Source: Gammaproteobacteria bacterium
GTDB lineage: Bacteria; Pseudomonadota; Gammaproteobacteria; Steroidobacterales; GCA-2729495
DNA length: 47,196 nucleotides
Assembly (NCBI GenBank): GCA_029245525.1
Contig: JAQWPD010000101.1
Span: 1 to 47,196, forward strand
Direction of reading: 5' to 3'
Position 1 is the first letter of the stretch; the number at the start of each line of letters is the position of its first letter. The notes under the pieces are model-generated. The model saw only the letters and a list, made by a program, of their open reading frames with translations. It was not told the DNA's origin and made no database searches. Positions 2,724 to 25,352 of the stretch are shown here, in pieces. A program made the position numbers and the translations under genes.

Positions 2724-4382
<1,659 letters not shown>

Positions 4383-24126: not shown

Positions 24127-24342
24127 ATGAGTAATAACGTCGAAACCACCGTATTCCGTGCCCGGGCTCGCCTTAAAGAACTCCGAGTTGCGCATCATGA
24201 TCTTGATACATCTATTCACGAGCTATCAACCGATCCGAATATCGATTTGCTAAAGATCAAGCGCCTGAAAAAACAAAAACTCCGCATTAAAGACATGATT
24301 GTTCGCATTGAAAGCCAGTTAATTCCTGACCTCAATGCGTAA
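24127..24342 (+). CDS. DUF465 (YdcH-type) small helical protein
   Basis: 71 residues, of unknown function. The body LKELRVAHHDLDTSIHELS, then IDLLKIKRLKKQKLRIKDMI, is the DUF465 pattern: two helices, likely a coiled-coil hairpin, strongly charged and basic in the second helix. No signal peptide or membrane segment. It stands alone between cysQ and the presumptive small-RNA region, with its own candidate promoter. The annotation is by family resemblance and says little about its job. Confidence 0.85.
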   Translation: MSNNVETTVFRARARLKELRVAHHDLDTSIHELSTDPNIDLLKIKRLKKQKLRIKDMIVRIESQLIPDLNA

Positions 24343-24455
24343 CTGCTCGAATGCTTGAGCCTCTCGTCCGCCACCGTGCCCAGCTGCATGTCGGAAATCC
24401 ATACAGATAAAAAAACTTATAACAAGTTGTTTTTATAAACCAATTTAGCGAACTC

Positions 24456-24471
24456 TGTGACGTCCATCACA
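24456..24471. promoter_or_regulatory. CRP/Vfr-type binding site
   Basis: TGTGA-CGTCCA-TCACA, a perfect match to the CRP core with the correct six-base spacing. The site lies 114 bases after the DUF465 stop and about 190 bases upstream of the sigma-54 promoter. A second inverted repeat, CATCAC-AATA-GTGATG (24465-24480), overlaps it. What it regulates is not clear. Confidence 0.55.
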
Positions 24472-24655
24472 ATAGTGATGTGCCAACATGTCGAAAAAAA
24501 AGACAATGTGCCAAAACTATCCGGTATTGCCACCGCTAGCGCAGAGCATAACGAACAGTCACGATGCATCGGTGGCGAAAAATAGTGAGACCGGTATCAC
24601 ATTAATTCCGTGGTTTTCCAACTTTAGTTAAATTGAGGCAATTACGAGATTTGGC

Positions 24656-24671
24656 TGGCACGCATTCTGCA
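24656..24671 (+). promoter_or_regulatory. Sigma-54 (RpoN) promoter
   Basis: TGGCACGCATTCTGCA: GG at 24657-24658, exactly ten bases, GC at 24669-24670. It differs from the consensus TGGCACG-N4-TTGCA at a single base. No protein gene follows in this direction; the next feature is a terminator 100 bases on. Predicted start near 24682. Confidence 0.75.
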
Positions 24672-24681
24672 AGATACAAGT

Positions 24682-24796
24682 GACACTAAAACTCTAATAA
24701 TAAGAAGGTTTGGTCAGAACCTCGTGATTCGCTCTATGGGGTTTTAGTTCGTCCGTTCCGTGCCTATAAAACCCGCCGTCAGGCGGGTTCTTTTTT
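24682..24796 (+). ncRNA. Candidate sigma-54-dependent small RNA (about 115 nt)
   Basis: Bounded by a near-consensus sigma-54 promoter and a strong intrinsic terminator, with no ORF longer than seven codons between. Internal features: an A-rich single-stranded stretch AATAATAAGAAGG (24696-24708), which reads as four ARN triplets, the type bound by the distal face of Hfq and similar to the AANAANAA motifs used by Crc/Hfq; a small hairpin AGGTT-TGGTCAG-AACCT just after it; and the terminator stem. The layout recalls RpoN-controlled RNAs such as CrcZ, NrsZ or Qrr, but I see no sequence identity with any of them. The exact 5' end is inferred from the promoter. Confidence 0.6.
24770..24796 (+). terminator. 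Rho-independent terminator
   Basis: AACCCGCC, loop GTCA, GGCGGGTT, C, then six T. An 8-bp stem with a U-tract on the plus strand; on the minus strand TTTTAT follows, so it can also end the transcript of the hydrolase gene at 24831. Confidence 0.9.
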
Positions 24797-24830
24797 ATCT
24801 CGACCACAAAAACACAGTTAAGAATAAAAA

Positions 24831-25352
24831 CTAGCCTTTTGCATGACCAACTAAGAACTGCTGAAACAAAATCTGCAGCCGCGCTAAACTATCGGCATCA
24901 CCAAGACCATGGTCACCTGCCAAAAGGGCAAAACGCGCCCGGGTTTCCAACGCAAACCGCAAAGCATTTCGATACGGTATAACCTCATCACGCCAGCCAT
25001 GAACAAGGGTTGCTGAGCAGCGCAATGGCAGCGGGTTAAATGCCTCATAGCCCGGCACATAAATTGCGGTGGCTATCAAAAACACGCCAGCAACAGCAAC
25101 GCGGTGTGCGACCGCGGCACTGACTGCGGCACCCATACTGCTGCCCACAAGCAATACCGGCATGGTTTGTTGCGTGCACCATAAAAACAGCTTGTCGATA
25201 CGCTCTGCGGGATCATCGATACCACGATAATCAAGTGATTCAACACACCACCCTGCCTGCTCAGCCAGCGGCATTAACCTTCTGATTTTTGTGCCGTCCG
25301 GGCCGCTCTCCTGACCATGAGAAAAGCAGACGATTCCTCGTTGTGAATTCAT
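24831..25352 (-). CDS. Small alpha/beta hydrolase
   Basis: 173 residues, no signal peptide, so cytosolic. It is a minimal hydrolase: FSHGQESGPDG oxyanion loop near the start, nucleophile S72 in GSSMGA, acid D122 in HGWRDEVIP and H148 in GDHGL, a complete triad. The size and the HG-x-ESGP loop resemble the YqiA/RBBP9-like esterases; substrate unknown. It starts three bases after the symporter stop and is therefore the second gene of that operon, perhaps acting on an imported ester or lactone, but that is only inference. Confidence 0.8.
   Translation of the reverse strand: MNSQRGIVCFSHGQESGPDGTKIRRLMPLAEQAGWCVESLDYRGIDDPAERIDKLFLWCTQQTMPVLLVGSSMGAAVSAAVAHRVAVAGVFLIATAIYVPGYEAFNPLPLRCSATLVHGWRDEVIPYRNALRFALETRARFALLAGDHGLGDADSLARLQILFQQFLVGHAKG

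Follow-up and report, generated by a model that had tools for sequence, protein, structure and literature searches.

Does the DNA between a DUF465 gene and a convergent alpha/beta-hydrolase-like gene of a gammaproteobacterium encode a small RNA that is driven by sigma-54 and occupies Hfq, in the manner of CrcZ in Pseudomonas? The window, by which we mean the whole stretch of DNA analysed (47,196 nucleotides; contig JAQWPD010000101.1 of assembly GCA_029245525.1), comes from a member of the order Steroidobacterales whose genome comprises 2.28 Mb in 123 contigs at a completeness of 98%. A preliminary description of this DNA had placed here a candidate sigma-54-dependent small RNA, functionally of the CrcZ type and with no similarity that could be recognised to those already named. 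Sigma-54-dependent small RNAs such as NrsZ and Qrr are known, as are RsmY/RsmZ and CsrB, which titrate CsrA/RsmA through GGA motifs.

CrcZ itself is given, in the relevant passage of one report, as a 407-nt Hfq decoy with six (ARN)n motifs of n at least 4 (PMC4063720). According to the pertinent sections of another, it lies downstream of cbrAB with CbrB sites of the form TGTTAC-N12-14-GTAACA, and the cbrA-cbrB-crcZ organisation is described in Pseudomonas and Azotobacter only (PMC8871633); a third source, in the section concerned, calls CbrAB exclusive of pseudomonads (PMC6296734). The corresponding passages of an Acinetobacter Crc study name CrcZ just in a reference on P. putida (PMC8312277), and those of a small-RNA paper on Alcanivorax state that Crc is absent from the genus and leave CrcZ unmentioned (PMC9788540). 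Among the matches listed in the open-licence literature, in the passages that they cover, there was no CrcZ-type RNA outside Pseudomonadaceae, and reports of CrcZ homologs or orthologs concerned P. putida only.

Results

Sigma-54 promoters follow the consensus TGGCACG-N4-TTGCW. A -24/-12 promoter of this type is present in the window as TGGCACGCATTCTGCA (24656-24671, forward strand), in which the GG (24657-24658) and the GC (24669-24670) of the GG-N10-GC core are ten bases apart and a single mismatch separates the box from the consensus, exactly as the preliminary description had it. The promoter is identical in the three genus genomes that were compared. There is a single TGGCACGNNNNNTGCA in the window, where 0.12 would be expected, and it turns up at least once in 11 of 100 shuffles.

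The predicted small RNA extends from 24682 to 24797 on the forward strand, its start being placed about 12 nt after the GC of the -12 element and its end in a T-run, and this transcript folds better than its shuffles (z -2.6), of which 1 in 200 did as well. The strong intrinsic terminator that had been claimed is there (24770-24797, forward strand), with a stem of 8 pairs at 24770-24789 followed by T's, and the absence of any reading frame over seven codons likewise held for frames ending before it: the longest frame ending between 24682 and the terminator has 7 codons (24724-24747), and a further frame from a GTG at 24760 runs for 24 codons through the terminator to 24834. Near the 5' end, the four ARN triplets already remarked upon were recovered in AATAATAAGAAG (24696-24707, forward strand), with a mean unpaired probability of 0.59. 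The consensus fold of the three genus sequences contains a long hairpin, GACACUAAAACUC...GGGGUUUUAGUUCGUC (24682-24753, forward strand), whose internal loop takes most of the ARN run; no doubly compensated pair was found in these three sequences. Towards the terminator, CGTCCGTTCCGTGCC (24750-24764, forward strand) is identical in the three genus genomes, mostly unpaired and a possible pairing seed, and is the counterpart of the CCGYGCC box of the family RNAs. Because (ARN)4 starts occur in the window about 0.045 times per 116 nt of one strand (about 0.011 for (AAN)4), the single ARN run is modest evidence; the RNA is 27% A and lacks a second (ARN)3 block.

The conserved upstream neighbour of the RNA is a DUF465 gene (24127-24342, forward strand; 71 aa; Pfam PF04325, E 6.2e-14), and a DUF465 match was found in 32 of 40 family genomes. 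Outside the RNA, the convergent neighbour is the alpha/beta-hydrolase-like gene (24831-25352, reverse strand), whose Pfam matches are below the curated cut-off and whose end lies 34 bases from the end of the T-run; past it follow a sodium:solute symporter and then a hydantoinase/oxoprolinase. Among relatives the gene downstream of the RNA varies, being glucokinase-like or trehalose-phosphatase-like in some, as judged by eye. A search of viral contigs with the neighbour protein returned no relative.

Both proteins that such an RNA would require are encoded in the genome, RpoN (PF04552 at C8, E 1.5e-64) and Hfq (E 1.4e-29, with VNGIKLQG). The distal-face region of this Hfq carries SIFLVNGIKLQG, the F of which we take to be the counterpart of E. 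coli Tyr25. Of the genome's three exonuclease-family proteins, two were set against solved structures, and no clear Crc was found between these two: the one nearer to Crc (C33:81237) scored 318.8 bits with 2jc5, presumably the neisserial NApe, against 254.3 bits with Crc, and the second was closer to exonuclease III.

In both of the other genus genomes compared the locus is kept, at 82% identity, with the promoter, the ARN run, CGTCCGTTCCGTGCC and the terminator among its best-conserved parts. Conservation of the box and the terminator in relatives had been set as a test of the candidate, which came through it: the box, the ARN run and the terminator are kept in 3/3 genus genomes, with one letter of the ARN run altered in one and one stem letter in another. 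Since it is conserved, the arrangement is more than chance. Short DNA matches outside the genus (L005-L013) consisted of terminator stems only and were discarded.

At 28 of 30 family loci downstream of DUF465, the window's included, TGGCA[CT]-N6-TGC[AT] stands at the same place and is followed by an RNA of 115-231 nt. The invariance of the fixed promoter letters is by construction, because this pattern was used in picking the loci. Weight is carried instead by what was not selected, namely the final A (25/25 promoters) and the G after TGGCA[CT] (24/25) in a family logo of 25 sequences (L093, L089 and L090 left out), together with two boxes upstream. The exceptions among the 30 loci are L104, which a contig end truncates (its genome, G024, carries the RNA on a different contig), and L112 in G022, where the RNA was not found.

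A sequence-only model (R1), built from 23 sequences of other genera and excluding the three genus members as well as L093 and L096, matched the promoter region of the window with an E value of 3.6e-11 and gave a second, weak match at the terminator box (24753-24794; E 0.084). Across 396 genomes sampled from the order, R1 matched 41, that is 33 of 40 in the family and 8 of 356 elsewhere; 23 of the family matches are training genomes and match by construction, the independent ones being 10 of the 17 remaining family genomes, and no R1 match was obtained in 7 of 40 family genomes, G022 (99% complete) among them. The eight genomes beyond the family include four with full-length RNAs in one other family of the order (L149-L152), two with A-rich RNAs and a -24/-12 box (L156 in G042, L158 in G229), one with an A-rich RNA and no clear box (L155 in G067), and one whose locus resembles the others in the promoter only (L157 in G240). 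Besides its DUF465-linked RNA, G031 has a second sigma-54-type A-rich RNA with several ARN blocks (L154, about 3578-3820 of G031:C80), which recalls the CrcZ/CrcY pairs. A class-wide search of 369 genomes gave five matches, two of them in the family; by eye the other three are two pilA promoters (L164, L165) and a curli-like gene including its 3' end (L163), and they were rejected. The RNA was found outside the order in none of these 369 class genomes, in a search of the large kind that applies stricter filters and loses weak matches.

ARN enrichment was assessed over 27 distinct family RNAs, L093 being omitted because its RNA is the same as that of L091. Runs of (ARN)>=4 numbered 39 against 9.2 in dinucleotide shuffles, with the incomplete L102 sequence entered as zero, and runs of (AAN)>=3 numbered 46 against 14.2. 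With the full L102, an (ARN)4 run is present in 26/27 RNAs, L094 being the exception, and at least two (ARN)3 blocks are present in 23/27, those without being the three genus members and L106. Taken singly, 11 of the 27 RNAs, including the run-less L094 and the incomplete L102, have an ordinary (ARN)4 count that is reached by at least 0.18 of shuffles; the ARN excess is a family-wide result and not one of each RNA. The ARN nucleotides are also predicted to be accessible, their unpaired probability averaging 0.84, compared with 0.58 in the remainder of the body, over a pool of 34 RNAs (27 family members plus 7 others; the pool includes four without an (ARN)4 run) and with A-richness uncontrolled. 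By eye, the ARN run sits in a hairpin loop in 12 RNAs, with stems GCCTG/CAGGC, GCCCG/CGGGC or ACCTG/CAGGT, the fifth pair being mismatched in two of the 12 RNAs; pair statistics are not given for these hairpins, whose stems failed to align in MAFFT. Applied to 13 family RNAs, RNAalifold returned the terminator only. Before the terminator, 25/27 family RNAs carry a box, CCGYGCC in 21/27 and AAGCCCA in 4/27. Each of the RNAs of the other family (L149-L152) has at most one (ARN)4 run; they share CUCCUCC, which is complementary to the Shine-Dalgarno sequence, and, ahead of the terminator, a short block of the AACAAC type.

No Rfam family matched the window at the gathering threshold. A relaxed scan gave seven weak matches in 24343-24830 (P9, Trp_leader and others), all covering the terminator and far under gathering scores, which were judged chance; CrcZ (RF01675) had no match in the window, the relaxed scan included. 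The absence of similarity to named small RNAs stands for the window's RNA in Rfam, but it needs qualifying for two relatives, for which CrcZ was the best sub-threshold family: L158 (27.2 bits, E 0.0022, against a gathering score of 95) and L098 (22.9 bits; E 0.0012 alone and 0.041 when scanned jointly), which aligns ACAACAACAAUAA with the start of the CrcZ model. These were the only CrcZ matches in relaxed scans of 28 loci, the other 19/20 and 7/8 having none.

Two boxes, 31 bp apart, precede the promoter at a constant distance across the family logo. Box 1 (24587-24601, forward strand) reads GAGACCGGTATCACA in the window, with a degenerate first half, against a family consensus of GTGAC-N5-TCACA; box 2 (24623-24632, forward strand) reads TTTAGTTAAA against TTCTGTCAAA. 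Box 2 (TT-N1-2-GT-N-AA) was found in 25/27 family promoters, and box 1 as a full GTGA-N6-TCAC in 17/27, with its second half TCAC in 23/27. In the window's genus box 1 is degenerate and its second half-site alone is clear, likewise in L149-L152; there GTCACA (-60 or -59 from the box) and TGTC or TGTT (-29) occupy nearly the family positions. A promoter-only model (R2), built without L093, L097 and the three genus members, matched 24583-24671 of the window with 39.9 bits (E 5.1e-11). Enhancer pairs such as NtrC's are site pairs about three helical turns apart, and the box 1/box 2 pair, with a spacing of about three turns, resembles them.

R2 finds both boxes before other genes as well, and the RNA may therefore not be the only target of the regulator. 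At L153 (1075-1163 of G033:C27), both upstream boxes and TGGCGTGGAATTTGCT precede a small ORF that looks secreted; judged by eye to be PEP-CTERM-like, it carries VPEIDASSG and a basic tail. At L226 and L228 weaker R2 matches, without a clear -24/-12 box, stand before PEP-CTERM-like ORFs.

Transcription by sigma-54 requires an AAA+ activator. The genome has six PF00158 matches, and the comparison covered the three strong proteins, the three weak ones (L045-L047) being left out. The strong proteins are NtrC (663 bits, above the cut-off), a PilR-type protein beside a pilin gene and a PAS-type protein near an ammonium-transporter-like gene, the latter two being named from their neighbours and sequence and not from a family model. 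Boxes 1 and 2 fit the apparent target sites of none of the three. For NtrC, neither GCAC-N5-9-GTGC nor GCACC or GGTGC was found in the 250 bp upstream of the RNA promoter. PilR was considered because the genome's own pilA carries GTGAC/GTCAC half-sites; the pilA palindromes, TGAC-N7-GTCA, are spaced unlike box 1, and PilR was left unproven as the activator. PrsR, the PEP-CTERM regulator, was rejected, the three proteins scoring 296-358 bits, under the TIGR02915 cut-off of 502.6. The exact CbrB site TGTTAC-N12-14-GTAACA occurred neither in the window nor in 232 loci. The activator gene may be missing from the 98%-complete assembly.

Two further sites were observed near genes of these kinds. In the pilA promoter of a distant genome (L164, about 1624-1713), GTGACGCACATCACA lies at nearly box 1's distance from the -24/-12 box. 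At L055 (G000:C2 6958-6973), TGGCACGCTTCCTGCA lies between the gene for a PAS-type enhancer-binding protein and a small ORF that diverges from it; two ACGG[AT]ATT[TC]CGT repeats were seen by eye upstream, possibly as a private regulon.

Discussion

We propose that 24656-24797 is the gene for a sigma-54-dependent small RNA that would bind the distal face of Hfq through its ARN triplets and so occupy the protein, a reading to which we give a probability of about one half. An enhancer-binding protein, presumably answering a physiological signal, would fire the promoter; the transcript would build up and occupy Hfq through the ARN triplets; and the Hfq-repressed ribosome-binding sites of mRNAs would thereby be freed, by a mechanism like that of CrcZ in Pseudomonas. 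Family RNAs with two or more ARN blocks would suit Hfq titration well, and by analogy titration would be the likeliest action for most of the family. The RNA of the window's genus would be a shorter relative, whose one ARN run sits in a hairpin loop and which has a conserved unpaired stretch by the terminator. Because of its single ARN run, its 27% A and its lack of a second (ARN)3 block it would be a weak decoy, and titration is less likely for it than for its relatives.

Like CrcZ/CrcY/CrcX of Pseudomonas and Azotobacter, the family RNAs are apparently non-coding, have an RpoN promoter and contain ARN/AAN blocks. They differ from CrcZ in length (115-231 nt, about 115 in the window, against 407), in the number of ARN runs (one in the window and 0-3 in the family relatives, against six), in their neighbour (DUF465 instead of cbrB), in the exact CbrB sites that CrcZ has and they do not, and in the RF01675 score, which at 27.2 for the best locus falls short of the 95 that membership takes. 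The RNA would act like CrcZ, yet by Rfam score, length, ARN number, place and CbrB sites it does not count as CrcZ. The earlier assignment to the CrcZ functional type is upheld in so far as a conserved, RpoN-type, apparently non-coding RNA with an ARN motif and multi-block relatives was found, but it is weakened by the one ARN run of the window's own RNA. With RsmY/RsmZ and CsrB the RNA would share the decoy principle, the repeated motif being ARN here and GGA there. It has a sigma-54 promoter in common with NrsZ and Qrr, and differs from them in having no Rfam match at the gathering threshold and in its neighbours, which are DUF465 and the hydrolase-like gene, not ntrC or luxO.

Titration leaves the terminator-proximal box of 25/27 RNAs unexplained, and this box is one reason to weigh a different action, in which the RNA would be a class II-type, Hfq-assisted base-pairing small RNA with its ARN run on the distal face of Hfq, its U-tail on the proximal face and 24750-24764 pairing with mRNAs. 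Class II Hfq small RNAs are defined by an ARN motif and a terminator U-tail, both of which the window RNA has. Its internal ARN motif, U-tailed terminator and conserved unpaired stretch are shared with ChiX and MgrR of E. coli, from which it differs in its sigma-54 promoter and in the A-rich, multi-block character of most of its relatives. The identity of the mostly unpaired CGTCCGTTCCGTGCC in three genomes, the position of the family box at the same place and the Shine-Dalgarno-complementary CUCCUCC of L149-L152 also speak for pairing, whereas at least two (ARN)3 blocks in 23/27 RNAs exceed the needs of one Hfq site. For the locus as a whole we regard base-pairing as rather unlikely; for the window RNA it is nearly as plausible as titration, because a single hairpin ARN run is joined there to an unpaired stretch identical across the genus. 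The family may also combine pairing with titration.

A further explanation, which we consider improbable, concerns regulation and would make the RNA part of carbon control via CRP, box 1 and an upstream palindrome being CRP sites that act on the -24/-12 promoter. The CRP consensus is TGTGA-N6-TCACA, which the family box 1 equals, and GTGA-N6-TCAC is found at box 1 in the 17/27 promoters mentioned above. The palindrome, TGTGACGTCCATCACA (24456-24471, forward strand), lies about 200 bp upstream of the promoter, is the sole TGTGA-N6-TCACA match in the window against 0.05 expected, and is partly kept in the genus alignment. Yet the AAA+ activator would be needed whatever CRP does, and of box 1 just the second half-site is clear in the window's genus and in L149-L152. 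Finally, that the promoter yields a leader, antisense or other untranslated transcript in which the ARN run is incidental is very unlikely: the convergent gene does end just 34 bases past the T-run, and a single ARN run is only mildly unusual in one sequence, but the RNA stops at its own terminator before the hydrolase gene, the box, ARN blocks and terminator are kept though the downstream gene differs among relatives, and ARN runs in the family are about fourfold over shuffles.

On the evidence of its sequence, the locus is a real, conserved RNA gene, apparently of a functional type already known, here in a different lineage and differently arranged; its function as an Hfq-occupying RNA we infer. 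More tentatively, the family may represent a class of sigma-54-driven Hfq decoys outside Pseudomonadaceae, with an activator other than CbrB acting at conserved paired sites 31-32 bp apart, in which the decoy of one genus could have turned into a one-site RNA with a pairing seed. If this is true, decoy and base-pairing RNAs would be the ends of one evolutionary series, and the loss of ARN blocks in one genus would show a possible path from a decoy to a matchmaker-dependent small RNA. If RpoN-driven Hfq decoys exist in another gammaproteobacterial order, Hfq titration would be no Pseudomonas speciality, and its wiring to sigma-54 would be recurrent or ancient, an idea that the loci listed here render directly testable.
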